From the NCBI GenBank assembly GCA_022566315.1, contig JADFJC010000027.1:1-33539 (forward strand): DNA of 33,539 nt. The letters are read 5' to 3'. Under the pieces are notes generated by a model. The model was not told the DNA's origin. It was given only the letters and a program-made list of their open reading frames with translations, and searched no databases. Of the stretch, positions 14,469-20,722 are shown one piece after another (positions within the stretch are counted from its first letter, which is position 1; each line of letters begins with the position of its first letter). Origin of the DNA: Planctomycetota bacterium. GTDB taxonomy: Bacteria; Planctomycetota; Phycisphaerae; Sedimentisphaerales; Anaerobacaceae. The position numbers were made by a program, and so were the translations under genes.

Positions 14469-17400
14469 CTACCGTGCAAGGAGATTTACGGCCCGAACGG
14501 TCCGAGCACGCTGCTCGATCTCAGGCGGCAGGGAGCCTTTGAACCAGGCCTTGGCGCGGTATCTGAACTCATCGCCCCTGGGCAGGAACTTGAGGGGACC
14601 CAGACGCATCGCAAGCGGTCGATTATTCGACGGAGCGGTATTCGGGATTTCGTGACAGCCCACACAGGACTTGGTCTCATCGGCTCGGGTATAAATCCAC
14701 GTCAACTGGTTGCCGAGCACGCGACGGTTGCTGTCGAGTACCTGGAAGTGAAGCAGCCTGTCGGCGGGCACTTCGACGAAGAACGACCCGTCGGGGGCGA
14801 GCGGTGCCGTGCCGAGCACCCGGGCGAATGTCCCGCCGTGGTTCTTCCAGACTTCGTGTAGATTGGTCTGCGTACTGTGGCGGGCCACAACAGGCACGCC
14901 CTCCACCAACCGGATCAACCGGCCTCGCGCGGCAACATCCTTCTCCTGAGACGTATAGACCGAGGCACACACGAAGTGACCGCTATATCCCTGATGCCGC
15001 TCCTTGCTAACCAAAATTGGCGGGCGAGCACGCGCGGCTATCGGGCGGGCCTCGAAATCGGCGGCGGAAGGATCGTTGTAGAGCAGTGTCAGCTTCTTAC
15101 TCTGTGGGTCGTACACGTAGATGCCCAGATCGACCTTCGTGCGGTCTGGTGTCTTAAGCGTGGAAGCGCACAGTATCCGCCCGTCAGGCAGGGGAAACGG
15201 AGTAGTGTAGGAGCGAGTCTTGTTGTCGGGTGTGATAATTTGCTCCGCGTAGCGGCTCGGACCTACCAGCGTCAATCCTCCCTGTGTTACCACCACTATG
15301 TGCCGGCCGTCGGGCATCGGCTGGGGTTGAGTCATCCGCAGAACGCGATGCGTCAGTGGGGCTTCCTGCCCGTCCGCCGGAGTCCGGGGGCCGTGATCGA
15401 AGTCGCGCCAGAACACCCGCCGCTCTGGGCCGTAAAGCACCATGTCCCGCGTCCCGTCGGGATTGACGGCGTGAAGTGTCAATTCGGTCTTGTTGCGAGA
15501 ATAGAAGACTTCCAGGCGGCTGAACACAACTCGTCCGTCGAGCAGGACCGCCGGTTCATTGTCCCGGCCGATGTTCGTGGCAATCAGGTGAATATCCGTG
15601 CCGTCGGGATTCATCACGTGCAGGGAAGCGCAGGGATAGCCGTGATACTCATCGCGGATGCCGGAACGACTCGATGTAAAAACGATTCGACCGTCCGGCA
15701 GGTAAGCCGGCCCGACGTCGTGATAGGGTCCATAGGTAAGCTGTTCAAGCTCCGAGCCATCCACGTTGATGCGATAGATATGCCACCACGGATCTTCCTG
15801 GCCGCGATAAGTAAATATCACATATTTGCCGTCCCAGGAGAGTTCAGGCTCGGCGACATAACCGTCTCCAAAGCGAGTCAGCGGTGTTACCGTGCCGTCG
15901 GGTCGAGGCGGGCGCAGAACGTAAAGGTTTCGTCCGGGCCGGTAGGCCGGACCTGAATCGGTTACCACGTATGTCTGCCGCCAGCGATCAGCCTGTTCGA
16001 CCGTGCCTATCGTGTTCGGGATGCTGTTGTCGCCTTTGATAAAGACAATGGCCTCGAATCCCGAATCGCCGGATGCACTTTCAGGTACCACAACGGGTTT
16101 GTAATATGGCCCGGTGCCCATCTCGTCCGAAGGCCCTTCGAGAATGCGCAGGGCATCTCTTGCCACAAGACGCGTGCTGTGGAACGGATGATTTCGCGCC
16201 GCTCGCTTCAAAGCGAGTCTCGCCGTCTCGTTGCCCATATCCGCCAGCGCTTCGGCTGCGGCGTGCCGGACTTCCAAAACAGAGCCTTCATCCTCAAGTA
16301 TCTGAACGATGAGGTCTGTGTGTTGGTGGGCACCAAGCAGTCCAAGAGCACGTATGAGGCCTTGCCGCCAGCGCGGCGCCGGGTCGGCGTATTCCTCGTC
16401 CTTGAAGGTCCCGCTGTAGCCGTATTCGGCTTCGGCCTTCGCTTGTGCCAGTATCTCCGCAATCGGCTCGATGGCACGTTTGTCACCGAGCCACGCGAGT
16501 GTTTTGGCTGCGTTCAGTCGCACCCAGCCATCTTCGTGCCTCAGCAGAGCGAGCAGCCGCGGTATATCTTCCTTTTCAGTGCAAACCGCAGGCAGCCAGG
16601 TCGCCATCCGGCCGGCATAGAATTGAGGCCATTGCCGAGCCTGGCGCGCTTTTGGGACTCGTCGAGGTTGCCCCAGCAGTTCGAAGGCATGCTCGCACGC
16701 TTGCCGGCGCAAGCCCGATAGCTCCAGCAGATGCCGTGTCAATAGGTGGCCTACTTCAGGTTCGTACAGCAGAAACGTGTCGTGGTCGCCCGGCAGGTTC
16801 GCCATTATCAAAGGAGCTATCTCCCGCAGAGCGGCCCGCTCGGATGGAGAGTCCCCAAGCAAACGGCACAGCGAAAAGGCTATGTGGTAGGGGGTTTCGA
16901 GCATCCTATCTTCGGAAGGGAAACCCATCTTGTCGTCCCGCGGAAGATCGCAGGGATCGCTGCCGTCCAACTTTTTGCCGTATTTGCGATACGCTGCAAA
17001 CAGAGCCGGAACGGCGAGCCTATCATCGAAATCACCCAACGCATCGGCGGCGTAGCGCGCCCAATAAGTGTTATCGAGCAGTTCCAGCAGGTATGAGAAC
17101 CCGGCCTCGTCCTGCAATCGTCCCAGAGATCGGATGCCCGCACGAGCCATCGGACGATACTCACCGCCTGACGGGGGAATCGGCCCCAAACATCGCAGGA
17201 TTGCCTCCGTCGCGCCAGAACCTCCCAGTGTGCCCAAAGCACGAAGGCCACGCTCGCACTTCCATATGACGGAGTCGATGGGGGGAGTCTCACTACCGGT
17301 GCCACCGCCGACCTGGATTTCAAAGAATGTCGTGGGATAGGTCGGATTGACCGAGCCGTAGCTGGTGATGCGGACGTACCGGACGAGACGCGGCGAAAAC

Positions 17401-18203
17401 GTGGTTGCCAGCGTGACAGGCGTTCTTCCCTTTTTTCTCTCGACGACCACGAAGGTTTTGTTGTCTAAGCTGGTAGCAAGCTCGTAGTCGGTCAACACAA
17501 AACGCGGGCCGTACTGGTGGATGGTAACCAGAGAAATCTGCTGGGGCCGGCCCAGGTCGATGGTGCACCACTGCGGGAAGGGAACGTTCTTGGTCTGCCA
17601 GAATCCCGGCCCGAGAAGACCGTCGGTCAGTACGTCGGGCGGTCCCCTGTAAGTCGAGGACGCCGTCACCGACCCGCCATGCGGCCGGTGTTTCCAGCCT
17701 TCGAGGAGCTGGAGCACTTCTGCCGGCGGCTGGTTCGATGGGACTGTTTCCCACCAGTCGCGCCATACGCTAATCTGGGCCGTGCGCTTTGGCGACGGCG
17801 CCATCGTATCGAACGGAAATTCCATACCGGTGAGGTTGGTCAGCGCAACGTGCGTCGCCTGCCTGGTAACTGCATCCGCATCTTCGAGAGCGTCCAGCAG
17901 GGGTGCGATTGCTTTGCGACTGCCGCACCATGCGAGCGCCATTGCCACCTGGCGGCGTACATACGCCGATTTGTCGAACAGCCGCTCAATCAGCGATTCC
18001 TCGGCGTCGTAGGCCCTGAGAAATCCCAACGCCTCGGCGGCACCGGCGCGCGTGTGTTCCGAGTGCGAGTGCAGCTTGGCCGTCTGCTCTGCGACCTGCC
18101 GGGCATAGGGACCCGATGACTCCTCGGCAGCGGTGCTTCGCTCGTATTCACCAAGCCAAACACAGAGACAAACAAGCAGCATGAGCTTTCGCAAGTATGA
18201 CAT
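14469..18203 (-). CDS. HzsA-related exported protein: HEAT repeats, discoidin domain, beta-propeller, CXXCH
   Basis: A 1244-residue secreted protein resembling those databases call HzsA-related, because they share a domain with the hydrazine synthase alpha subunit. Hydrazine synthesis is not implied. Order: signal peptide (about 1-26); HEAT/PBS-type repeats (about 35-130); an F5/8-type C (discoidin) domain (about 170-300, ASSTYRGPPDVLTDG and VRYVRITSYG) that may bind carbohydrate; more HEAT repeats (315-690); a TolB/WD40-like beta-propeller (about 715-1110, LSWDGKYVIFTYR, YLPDGRIVFTSSRSG); and a C-terminal segment with one c-type heme motif, CVGCH (1180-1184). A role as surface binding or redox protein is inferred. 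The assigned ATG at 18203 has only a weak ribosome site, but the signal peptide follows directly. Its GC content seems higher than its neighbours'. Confidence 0.85.
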   Translation of the reverse strand: MSYLRKLMLLVCLCVWLGEYERSTAAEESSGPYARQVAEQTAKLHSHSEHTRAGAAEALGFLRAYDAEESLIERLFDKSAYVRRQVAMALAWCGSRKAIAPLLDALEDADAVTRQATHVALTNLTGMEFPFDTMAPSPKRTAQISVWRDWWETVPSNQPPAEVLQLLEGWKHRPHGGSVTASSTYRGPPDVLTDGLLGPGFWQTKNVPFPQWCTIDLGRPQQISLVTIHQYGPRFVLTDYELATSLDNKTFVVVERKKGRTPVTLATTFSPRLVRYVRITSYGSVNPTYPTTFFEIQVGGGTGSETPPIDSVIWKCERGLRALGTLGGSGATEAILRCLGPIPPSGGEYRPMARAGIRSLGRLQDEAGFSYLLELLDNTYWARYAADALGDFDDRLAVPALFAAYRKYGKKLDGSDPCDLPRDDKMGFPSEDRMLETPYHIAFSLCRLLGDSPSERAALREIAPLIMANLPGDHDTFLLYEPEVGHLLTRHLLELSGLRRQACEHAFELLGQPRRVPKARQARQWPQFYAGRMATWLPAVCTEKEDIPRLLALLRHEDGWVRLNAAKTLAWLGDKRAIEPIAEILAQAKAEAEYGYSGTFKDEEYADPAPRWRQGLIRALGLLGAHQHTDLIVQILEDEGSVLEVRHAAAEALADMGNETARLALKRAARNHPFHSTRLVARDALRILEGPSDEMGTGPYYKPVVVPESASGDSGFEAIVFIKGDNSIPNTIGTVEQADRWRQTYVVTDSGPAYRPGRNLYVLRPPRPDGTVTPLTRFGDGYVAEPELSWDGKYVIFTYRGQEDPWWHIYRINVDGSELEQLTYGPYHDVGPAYLPDGRIVFTSSRSGIRDEYHGYPCASLHVMNPDGTDIHLIATNIGRDNEPAVLLDGRVVFSRLEVFYSRNKTELTLHAVNPDGTRDMVLYGPERRVFWRDFDHGPRTPADGQEAPLTHRVLRMTQPQPMPDGRHIVVVTQGGLTLVGPSRYAEQIITPDNKTRSYTTPFPLPDGRILCASTLKTPDRTKVDLGIYVYDPQSKKLTLLYNDPSAADFEARPIAARARPPILVSKERHQGYSGHFVCASVYTSQEKDVAARGRLIRLVEGVPVVARHSTQTNLHEVWKNHGGTFARVLGTAPLAPDGSFFVEVPADRLLHFQVLDSNRRVLGNQLTWIYTRADETKSCVGCHEIPNTAPSNNRPLAMRLGPLKFLPRGDEFRYRAKAWFKGSLPPEIEQRARTVRAVNLLAR

Positions 18204-18454: not shown

Positions 18455-19756
18455 ATGAAGCGGATTTTATTGTGTTTACTTATCGTCGGAAGTTTCACAA
18501 CAGCGTATGCCGATGGAAAGCTGAAGAAACAGGTCGATATCTCAGCGGATTTGATTGAGTCGAAGGTCATAGAATGGCGCCGTCATTTTCATCAGTTCCC
18601 GGAGCTTTCAAACAGAGAATTCAAGACGGCTTCAAAGATAGCAGAGCACCTTAGAAATCTGGGGCTGGATGTAACAACCGGCGTTGCCCATACTGGTGTC
18701 GTTGCCCTTTTGAAAGGCGGCAAACCAGGGCCGGTGGTTGGGCTTCGCGCGGACATTGACGCCCTGCCGGTCACCGAACGTGTAGATGTGCCGTTTGCTT
18801 CCAAAGTACGCACAAAATACGATGGGCACGATGTTGGAGTGATGCACGCCTGCGGCCACGATGCGCACATTGCCATTTTAATGGGTGTTGCCGAGATTCT
18901 TTCTTCAATGAAAAAAGACCTGGCCGGAAGTGTAAAGTTTATTTTCCAGCCAGCCGAAGAAGGCGCCCCACAGGGTGAAGAAGGCGGTGCTGAGCTAATG
19001 GTCAAGGAAGGGGTCCTGAAAAATCCTGAAGTTGATGTGATTTTCGGTTTACATATTTGGTCACTTGTCGAAGCCGGCACTATCAACTATCGTCCCCGGG
19101 GCATCATGGCCGCCGCAGATGGCCTTCGCATTAAAGTCAAAGGTAAGCAAACGCACGGCTCCACGCCATGGACAGGAATCGACCCGATTACTGTCTCTGC
19201 GCAGATTATCATCGGGCTCCAGACAATCATCAGCAGACAGACAGAGCTGACCGAAGAAGCGGCCGTGATAACCATCGGGAGCATCCACGGCGGAGTAAGA
19301 AGCAATATTATACCTGAAGAAGTCGAGTTGATAGGTACTATCCGGACGTTCAATACGGATATGCAGGATAAGATTCACGAAAAGATTCGACTGACCGCAA
19401 CAAAGATAGCCGAAAGTGCGGGGGCGATTGCAGATGTTCAGATTAGCAAGGGCTATCCGGTAACGTACAACGACCCTGAGCTTACTGCCATGATGCTGCC
19501 TTCGCTGCAGGAAGCCGCAGGCGAGGAAAATGTAAAGCTCATCAAGGCGATAACGGGCGCTGAGGATTTCTCATTTTTCCAGCAGAAGATTCCAGGCCTG
19601 TATTTTTTCTTAGGTGGAATGCCGAAAGGCAAAACAGTTGAAGCCGCTGCACCGCACCATACTCCGGATTTCTATATCGATGAAAGCAGTTTCAAGCTCG
19701 GCATCAGAGCGTTATCTTATCTGGCCCTGGATTATATGGATAAACACGGAAAGTAA
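18455..19756 (+). CDS. Exported M20-family amidohydrolase (N-acyl-amino-acid hydrolase type)
   Basis: Resembles the M20D peptidases that remove acyl groups from amino acids (hippurate, IAA-amino acid and N-acetyl-amino acid hydrolases) using a two-metal centre. Visible signatures are the metal-site motif MHACGHDAH (130-138, Cys133 and His135/138), catalytic and metal-binding QPAEEG (Glu168-169), FGLHIW (His200), and the C-terminal TGAEDFSFF and PHHTPDF. A dimerisation domain, GLRIKVKGKQTHGSTPWTGI, sits in the middle. Residues 1-19 are a signal peptide, so the enzyme acts outside the cytoplasm, which is less common for the family. The ATG has AAGGAG eight bases before it. A DUF1028 gene follows after a 171-bp gap containing a large hairpin, so the two may be co-transcribed. 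The exact substrate is unknown. Confidence 0.93.
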   Translation: MKRILLCLLIVGSFTTAYADGKLKKQVDISADLIESKVIEWRRHFHQFPELSNREFKTASKIAEHLRNLGLDVTTGVAHTGVVALLKGGKPGPVVGLRADIDALPVTERVDVPFASKVRTKYDGHDVGVMHACGHDAHIAILMGVAEILSSMKKDLAGSVKFIFQPAEEGAPQGEEGGAELMVKEGVLKNPEVDVIFGLHIWSLVEAGTINYRPRGIMAAADGLRIKVKGKQTHGSTPWTGIDPITVSAQIIIGLQTIISRQTELTEEAAVITIGSIHGGVRSNIIPEEVELIGTIRTFNTDMQDKIHEKIRLTATKIAESAGAIADVQISKGYPVTYNDPELTAMMLPSLQEAAGEENVKLIKAITGAEDFSFFQQKIPGLYFFLGGMPKGKTVEAAAPHHTPDFYIDESSFKLGIRALSYLALDYMDKHGK

Positions 19757-19781
19757 GGACTGGTAAAGAAATTAGGTTTCG

Positions 19782-19889
19782 TTTTTGGCTGAGCGAGGAC
19801 AAGGCTGGCAAGGAAGCAAAACGCAGGACTACTGGTTGGTAGTCCGAGTTTTGCTGAGGCCGCCAGCCGAAGCCGCAGCCAGCCAAAAA
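19782..19889. repeat. 108-bp compound hairpin element
   Basis: Nested perfect stems pair TTTTTGGCTG (19782-19791) with CAGCCAAAAA (19880-19889), GGCTGGC (19803-19809) with GCCAGCC (19862-19868), GCAAAAC (19816-19822) with GTTTTGC (19848-19854), and GGACTAC (19826-19832) with GTAGTCC (19839-19845) around a TGGTTG loop. It lies between the amidohydrolase and DUF1028 genes. It could be a miniature mobile element, an RNA processing site or a structured RNA. It is not a classic terminator, because the T-rich arm is on the 5' side on both strands. Confidence 0.8.
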
Positions 19890-19927
19890 TGGAAGATAAT
19901 TTATTTACAAGTCCTGAGAGAAAGACT

Positions 19928-20722
19928 ATGCAATCTACAAAAATCTTCAAATGTTTTGTCGTTTCGATTTGTGTGCTGGCCGCACTGGCCGGCAATACAT
20001 CCCGGGAACCGAAGGCCAATGACACACCGACAACCCACGCCCTCCCAGTGGAGTCTCTTCCACCGGTGGCGACGTTCTCGATTGTCGGATTTGACCCGAA
20101 TACAAAGGAGCTGGGCATTGCAGTGCAATCCAAGTTCATCGCAGTTGGCGCCGTTGTGCCGTGGGCCAAGGCCGGTGTCGGGGCCATCGCCACCCAGTCC
20201 TACGCCAACACAAAGTATGGCCCGCTCGGCCTAAAGTACCTCGCCAAGGGCCTCAGCCCCAAAGAAGTTATCGAGAAACTTACAGCCGGCGACTCTTCGG
20301 CTCCAAGGCGTCAGGTAGGCATTGTCGATGCCGATGGCCGGCCCGCAACCTTCACCGGCAACAAATGCAATGCTTGGGCCGGTGGCCGCACAGGTAAAAA
20401 CTACACCGTACAGGGCAACATCCTGACAGGCCCGGAGGTGGTCGATGCAATGGCCGAGGCATTCGAGAAAGCAGAAGGCGAACTGGGCGCACGCCTGATA
20501 ACCGCTCTCGATGCAGGTCAGGCCGCCGGCGGTGACAAACGCGGCAGACAGTCGGCTGCACTATTCGTCGTCCGCGAGGGTTGGGGATACGGCGGCTTCA
20601 ACGACCGTTACCGTGACATCCGTGTTGATGATAACCCCGAGCCAATCAAGGAGCTTCGCCGCATCTACGAGCTCCACAAGACCGTTTTCCCTCAGCCAAA
20701 ACCAGCCGACGAACAGAAATAA
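19928..20722 (+). CDS. DUF1028 family exported protein
   Basis: Matches the DUF1028 pattern: VATFSIVGFDPNTKELGIAV then QSKFIAVGAVVPWAKAGVGA, followed by TQSYANTKYGPLGL and RQVGIVDADGRPATFTG. Members are Ntn-hydrolase-like proteins of uncertain function, often near peptidases. This one has a signal peptide (MQSTKIFKCFVVSICVLAALAG). The ATG at 19928 is chosen because GAGAG lies about nine bases upstream and the signal peptide starts there. The frame runs back to an ATG at 19889, but that overlaps the end of the hairpin element and would add a non-signal-like tail. Following the M20 amidohydrolase on the same strand suggests a shared role in peptide or amide breakdown (inferred). The protein is full length. 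Confidence 0.88.
   Translation: MQSTKIFKCFVVSICVLAALAGNTSREPKANDTPTTHALPVESLPPVATFSIVGFDPNTKELGIAVQSKFIAVGAVVPWAKAGVGAIATQSYANTKYGPLGLKYLAKGLSPKEVIEKLTAGDSSAPRRQVGIVDADGRPATFTGNKCNAWAGGRTGKNYTVQGNILTGPEVVDAMAEAFEKAEGELGARLITALDAGQAAGGDKRGRQSAALFVVREGWGYGGFNDRYRDIRVDDNPEPIKELRRIYELHKTVFPQPKPADEQK

Follow-up and report, generated by a model that had tools for sequence, protein, structure and literature searches.

The interior of a MITE is usually regarded as decayed filler between the ends that a transposase reads. Some bacterial MITEs are described as being mobilised in trans by insertion sequences, among them RUP with IS630-Spn1 and Nezha with ISNpu3-like elements (PMC3049150). The same source describes the BOX elements of Streptococcus pneumoniae as having ends that resemble ISSpn2 and as being transcribed (PMC3049150), and BOX is described elsewhere as able to raise downstream expression via mRNA half-life (PMC3395615). 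Its boxA part is presented as the portion of BOX that is conserved in diverse bacteria, and the primer BOXA1R contains GGCAAGGCGACGCTGACG (PMC7291552). REP sequences are given as 20 to 40 bp long, with a GTAG or CGTC tag (PMC3733652).

Here we describe an element in a 33,539-nucleotide stretch of planctomycete DNA (the window, meaning that whole stretch). Like RUP and Nezha, it is short, non-coding, palindromic, multicopy and mostly intergenic, with IS-like ends and a target duplication; it differs from them in its IS types, which here are ISAzo13 and, in a sister set, IS630, and in having a folded module common to sets with different ends. With BOX it shares the build of a modular hairpin MITE, but the ends and the host phylum are different and BOX has a three-module build with a boxB insert; no boxA-boxB-boxC succession is present in the window element, which resembles BOX by a loop descriptor only. 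Similar to REP/REPIN sequences with their RAYT (HUH) transposases, it is a high-copy extragenic palindrome, but its 158 bp and DDE-type 3-bp target duplications set it outside that class. ERIC, too, is an intergenic palindromic MITE, but it gave no match to our covariance model R2 (see below) and lacks the bulged GNN of the planctomycete loop. Taking all the data together, we consider it very probable that the locus is an ISAzo13-type MITE carrying a conserved folded module, and slightly more likely than not that this module has been selected as a folded single strand.

The 158-bp element, its copies and its transposase

The initial annotation described a four-stem hairpin at 19782-19889, and this hairpin is indeed present, with the apical stem GGACTAC/GTAGTCC enclosed by the outer stems TTTTTGGCTG/CAGCCAAAAA, GGCTGGC/GCCAGCC and AGCAAAAC/GTTTTGCT. 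Its stability is, as had been claimed, far beyond chance: region 19772-19899 folds with an MFE of -66.2 kcal/mol against a shuffle mean of -37.99 (z = -8.25), which 0 of 200 shuffles matched. The hairpin is therefore real, but the 108 bp ascribed to it were too narrow, as pairing reaches 19757 and 19914 through GGACTGGTAAAGAAATTA (19757-19774) and TAATTTATTTACAAGTCC (19897-19914). The fold of 19754-19917 scores -84.4 on the plus strand (z = -10.78) and -70.6 on the minus strand (z = -8.85). No Rfam family matched window positions 19600-20000 at its gathering score, the only hit being snaR-A with 21.4 bits against the 98 needed, and 10 other loci gave nothing at E 0.1. The features of the element and its site are as follows.

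18455-19756, plus strand: M20 peptidase/amidohydrolase gene, ending directly before the element (Pfam)
19754-19756, plus strand: left target-site copy TAA, doubling as the M20 peptidase stop codon
19757-19914, no strand assigned: ISAzo13-type MITE, whole element, 158 bp (ends and duplications from copy comparison)
19757-19774, plus strand: left terminal inverted repeat GGACTGGTAAAGAAATTA, 18 bp (own-genome matches)
19897-19914, minus strand: right terminal inverted repeat GGACTTGTAAATAAATTA, 18 bp (own-genome matches)
19915-19917, plus strand: right target-site copy TGA, with two of three bases as in the left copy; TAA/TGA is 1 of 67 sites
19928-20722, plus strand: DUF1028 gene, likely start 13 bp past the element (Pfam)

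A search of the window's own draft genome (G000; 4.2 Mb in 244 contigs, 92% complete, the window being contig 79) revealed at least 40 copies of the hairpin with 96-100% identity. All 40 of the candidates scored, out of 103 at first look, matched at this level, most of them over the full length, and the copy counts are therefore lower bounds. The absence of any other copy, named beforehand as part of the outcome that would speak against the annotation, is thus excluded. When 20 copies were compared, identity past the 108 bp ran to GGACTGGTAAAGAAATTA on one side and TAATTTATTTACAAGTCC on the other and then ended in nearly all, the exception being one rearranged copy (L016). Allowing up to two mismatches, the terminal repeats were found 190 times in the genome (96 + 94), two of these within the window, as compared to 1 + 0 matches for a reversed-pattern control. 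Exact 3-bp TWA duplications flank 56 of 67 distinct sites, a tally that comprises all distinct loci then collected with both ends (TTA/TTA 33, TAA/TAA 23, crossed 5, others 6). The copies, the 18-bp terminal repeats, the TWA duplications and the ISAzo13-type ends strongly support the proposal that this is a non-autonomous mobile element: 19757-19914 is a multicopy, 158-bp ISAzo13-type MITE, without a transposase gene, that has spread through the genome. Plasmids and phages contained no match to it, and 18 pattern matches in viral contigs resemble coding sequence, none being palindromic by eye.

Ends of the window element's kind (type A) were present in 17 of 148 related genomes by exact-pattern search, G000 accounting for 166 matches and its control for none. 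The ISAzo13 family (PF07592) occurred in 16 of the 148 genomes and 0 of 14 control genomes. The G000 draft itself, at 92% completeness and in 244 contigs, gave 0 matches to PF07592, so the mobiliser was lost, is unassembled or came from elsewhere; no complete autonomous partner with identical ends was found there, and not every MITE must show one. In genome G085, many contigs break off ~120 bp from a copy, and where this sequence was read it runs on into a transposase C-terminus. Specifically, at three loci (L244, L251 and L257) a near-identical end is joined to the C-terminus of PF07592, the part of that gene that is assembled, and the MITE thus shares its ends with a PF07592-encoding element. 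In relatives, the ends of ISAzo13-type elements follow the pattern TWA-GG...TGTAAA.AAATWA, and one full-length element (L231) encodes a 407-aa PF07592 ORF between such ends, which are related but not identical to those of the MITE. From the ends and duplications we infer that an ISAzo13-family transposase probably moved the MITE in trans. PF13359 was not found in the own genome. PF01609 was rejected as mobiliser, as the ends of its 7 own-genome matches do not fit, and L163 was set aside as a chance partial match. ORFs adjoining unpaired terminal repeats showed no recognisable transposase by eye.

Copies gain or lose whole hairpins at internal loops and range from 109 to 271 bp. In the 109-bp forms (L047, L206, L209), the apical hairpin has been lost by deletion between GCTG repeats, an event that seems to have happened separately in G000, G072 and G003. 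Conversely, L040, L045, L049, L053, L059, L088, L099 and L146 have added hairpins at internal loops or at the apical stem. These insertions make the elements look modular, and the inserted palindromes may be repeats in their own right. Two minimal elements of ~36 bp, in L160 (~229-264) and L229 (~601-637), comprise little beyond the two terminal repeats. Seven own-genome loci (L038, L066, L067, L150, L151, L159, L161) contain lone left repeats of 18-19 bp that end near AAATTAG and are followed by unrelated sequence; they look as if the remainder had been removed at an internal TTA-G resembling the element's own end.

A core common to elements with different ends

Part of the hairpin recurs in MITEs with other termini.

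19795-19877, plus strand: core common to MITEs with other termini (query 14-96 of the 108-mer)
19803-19868, plus strand: R2 module (window match 79.8 bits)

Query positions 14-96 were matched in further genomes of the same family and order, among them G027, G049, G025 and G051, and G041 within a base or two. A 22-base core pattern was found at at least 80 loci, and among the matches listed nearly all were from MAGs carrying a Sedimentisphaerales, Phycisphaerae or Planctomycetota label. A Rhodobacteraceae match (L132) was rejected as a chance match in coding sequence. The core-bearing loci form two sets, one with the type A ends of the window element and one with a second kind, type B (TAGAGCA..TTTAA). 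In G000 itself, two DDE_3 (PF13358) elements are bounded by type B ends (L170 and L195), and type B sites show TA/TA duplications in 31 of 32 cases, which identifies the sister set, though not the window copy, as IS630-derived. One core thus lies between the ends of two transposase types, ISAzo13 in type A and IS630/DDE_3 in type B. Two core-bearing type B MITEs (L071, L087) come from records labelled Candidatus Kuenenia stuttgartiensis isolate MiH-14oct19-120, for which the label or the binning may be wrong.

Covariance model R1, built from alignment A1 (32 sequences chosen from 79 distinct cores, 123 matches), had matches in 10 of the 392 planctomycete genomes searched (E <= 0.001), some of them in distant multi-copy elements whose ends differ; two matches from the phylum (L268, L269) were set aside because they resemble coding sequence. 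A second model, R2, was built from 24 chosen sequences with the flanks excluded. It had matches in 27 of the 392 genomes, and the MITEs concerned have roughly twelve distinct termini, such as TAGACCTGTTCGATAACC, GCAGCCCGTTGA, AAGTAGCTCCACGATAATTT, CCTGTCCACTAAATA and GGTTCTGTCTGACGGATCC. Perfect inverted repeats of at least 9 bases were present in the flanks of 25 of 44 R2 loci (4 of 48 being left out for short flanks), as compared to 6.3% of 857 mismatched flank pairs, and in 12 of 19 newly found loci. Over 252 kb of control sequence (54 loci), no R2 match scored above 23.0 bits (E 0.0051), whereas matches in the phylum start at 30 bits, and all 15 control matches at E <= 1 were in loci chosen for a 20-base motif piece. 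Chance may account for R2 matches that score close to 30 bits and lack inverted flanks (L345, L346), and perhaps for L331 and L337 as well.

Recurrence in MITEs with unrelated ends indicates that conservation of the module is separate from that of the ends, and the presence of this module inside otherwise unrelated mobile elements across planctomycetes suggests a function for the fold as such. The literature, covered in part through titles and the starts of abstracts, held no description of these elements or of a core common to MITEs of unrelated transposases. MITEs of this kind, here ISAzo13-type, are already known; the conserved interior, the exchangeable ends and the coupled non-canonical loop are new. 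The filler view is thereby reversed, with a conserved interior between exchangeable ends, and the loop is defined well enough to be mutated.

Covariation and the internal loop

The module comprises a stem, an AA-R-GA-A loop opposite U-GA-Y-GNN, a second stem, a GCA/GA loop and the apical stem. The two sides of the internal loop are at these positions in the window copy.

19810-19816, plus strand: 5' side of the internal loop, AA-G-GA-A-G (A4 alignment)
19854-19861, plus strand: 3' side of the internal loop, C-U-GA-G-GCC (A4 alignment)

We fitted two alignments to the model structure, A2 (84 matches from 83 chosen sources, 79 distinct) and A4 (48 matches from 48 chosen sources). In A2, 93.9% of cells are paired, as compared to 27-43% in slid controls, and two-sided changes occur in 21 of 23 pairs; none of 500 shuffles scored as high. 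The values for A4 are similar (93.8% paired, two-sided changes in 17 of 18 pairs, 0 of 500 shuffles). Within the A4 loop, AA-R-G-A-A-G lies opposite C-U-G-A-Y-G-N-N. The R-Y pair is G-C in 40 sequences, A-U in 6 and otherwise in 2; in the window copy, 1 of the 48, it is broken by a G at the usual Y. Next to it is a G-A mismatch in 48 of 48. The pair that follows is A-G in 40, C-A in 7 and C-C in 1, and never A-A or C-G (25, 6 and 1 of 32 after dereplication at 75% identity); the one after that is A-U in 30, G-C in 17 and other in 1. Across MITEs with different ends, the loops vary less than the stems.

These data bear on whether this could be an ordinary selfish MITE, in which the hairpin is a leftover palindrome between the ends and the arms covary through self-templated (quasipalindrome) repair rather than through selection on the fold. 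Reviews describe palindromic MITEs as common, and the covarying arms and the recurrent apical deletions and added hairpins would all fit. Self-templated repair would, however, remove mismatched loops and is not expected to make coupled non-canonical pairs, yet the G-A mismatch is invariant, A-G is exchanged almost only for C-A, and conservation of the loops exceeds that of the stems in MITEs with different ends. We therefore regard this explanation as unlikely, at perhaps one chance in a few, and favour selection for a folded strand.

As to which strand folds, G-U exceeds A-C in the paired columns of A2 (39 versus 11 in 35 dereplicated sequences; 29 versus 9 without the loop-closing pair) and of A4 (45 versus 11). 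This excess favours the purine-rich plus strand as the folded one, although the comparison is weakened by the choice of columns, since RNAalifold selects those that tolerate G-U.

The same loop can be read in a BOX copy from a Streptococcus pseudopneumoniae satellite phage record (L308), in which CAAAC-UA-G-GA-A-GC lies opposite GC-U-GA-C-GUG-GUUUG. The planctomycete loop descriptor matched this record once in its 476 bases; over 317 loci it matched in 49, and 2 matches arose when these 1.29 Mb were dinucleotide-shuffled three times. Models R1 and R2 did not match L308, and because the resemblance is by descriptor only, shared descent with BOX cannot be claimed. The BOX pattern had 0 matches in viral contigs. 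If BOX shares the loop, point mutants would offer a way to test the long-standing puzzle of boxA conservation in distant bacteria. By eye, the central hairpin of the ERIC between cusF and cusC of E. coli (L318) has a tandem G-A/A-G beside a G-C pair that resembles part of the loop.

Possible roles of the module

We lean towards the folded single strand being RNA, probably made by read-through from neighbouring genes. Such read-through would yield an RNA copy of the module, which could act in cis to keep the transcript stable or to mask the long duplex from nucleases, and the element would then be tolerated without harm a few bases from genes. The case for such action in cis comes from the strand comparison and from analogy, BOX being the closest experimental parallel for the proposed transcript stabilisation. 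The initial annotation had offered a structured RNA as one possibility; covariation, the coupling of non-canonical pairs and the G-U excess in the aligned sequences lend it partial support, and a match to a known Rfam family is lacking. Against the RNA reading, the core shows no strand preference relative to genes, a preference that might be expected of a strand-specific host regulator. Of the 87 distinct copies of the core (23 own, 64 other; loci collected at that stage, ORFs called by a simple script), 2 are inside an ORF, and the flanking genes are arranged relative to the core as ++ in 20, -- in 21, -+ in 14 and +- in 15, with an open side in 15. The broken R-Y pair of the window copy and its right duplication, TGA, also count against the explanation as a whole.

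A broader reading, to which we would give somewhat less than even odds, is that across Planctomycetota one structured nucleic-acid module has travelled with MITEs of unrelated transposase families, or has been picked up by them again and again, and that it occurs in pneumococcal BOX too, as the conserved internal loop. On this view, a general RNA motif, mobile and defined by a non-canonical G-A / A-G (or C-A) pair set, would let small elements live beside genes.

The folded strand could instead be DNA, as a cruciform or lagging-strand hairpin that aids excision or replication, or that helps a host protein to recognise the element. A core common to elements of two transposase types and the lack of orientation bias relative to transcription would both be in keeping with this. 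However, DDE transposases of the ISAzo13 and IS630 types act on double-stranded ends, and the excess of G-U over A-C fits RNA somewhat better, though DNA also tolerates G-T; we rate a DNA fold as improbable, on a par with the selfish palindrome. Selection as a folded strand, more probably RNA, remains our preferred reading.

A bidirectional transcription terminator is a still poorer fit. In a simple scan, the apical hairpin came out as terminator-like on either strand (2 matches versus 0.2 expected), but its T-run is part of a longer helix, so the statement that there is no terminator geometry was roughly right, and convergent flanking pairs are not in excess (15 of 87).

The element does sit where it had been placed, between co-oriented amidohydrolase and DUF1028 genes, Pfam giving Peptidase_M20 and DUF1028. 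This position is what would suggest a host cis-regulatory or processing element specific to that gene pair, an idea that the copy number contradicts, with at least 40 copies beside other genes, and that we give almost no weight. A processing site setting the ratio of the two co-transcribed genes likewise found no specific support, as the copies have many different neighbours and no orientation bias. DUF1028 homologues were found in 8 of 61 genomes, and no empty site for the window insertion came to light; the one closer homologue examined (G015, 70% identity) has no amidohydrolase upstream. An in-frame ATG at 19889, contributed by the right end of the element, is a possible alternative start for DUF1028. 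Farther upstream in the window, 14469-18203 on the minus strand encodes a 1244-aa protein with HEAT repeats, an F5/8 type C domain and PD40, which also matches the hydrazine synthase alpha middle domain (PF18582).
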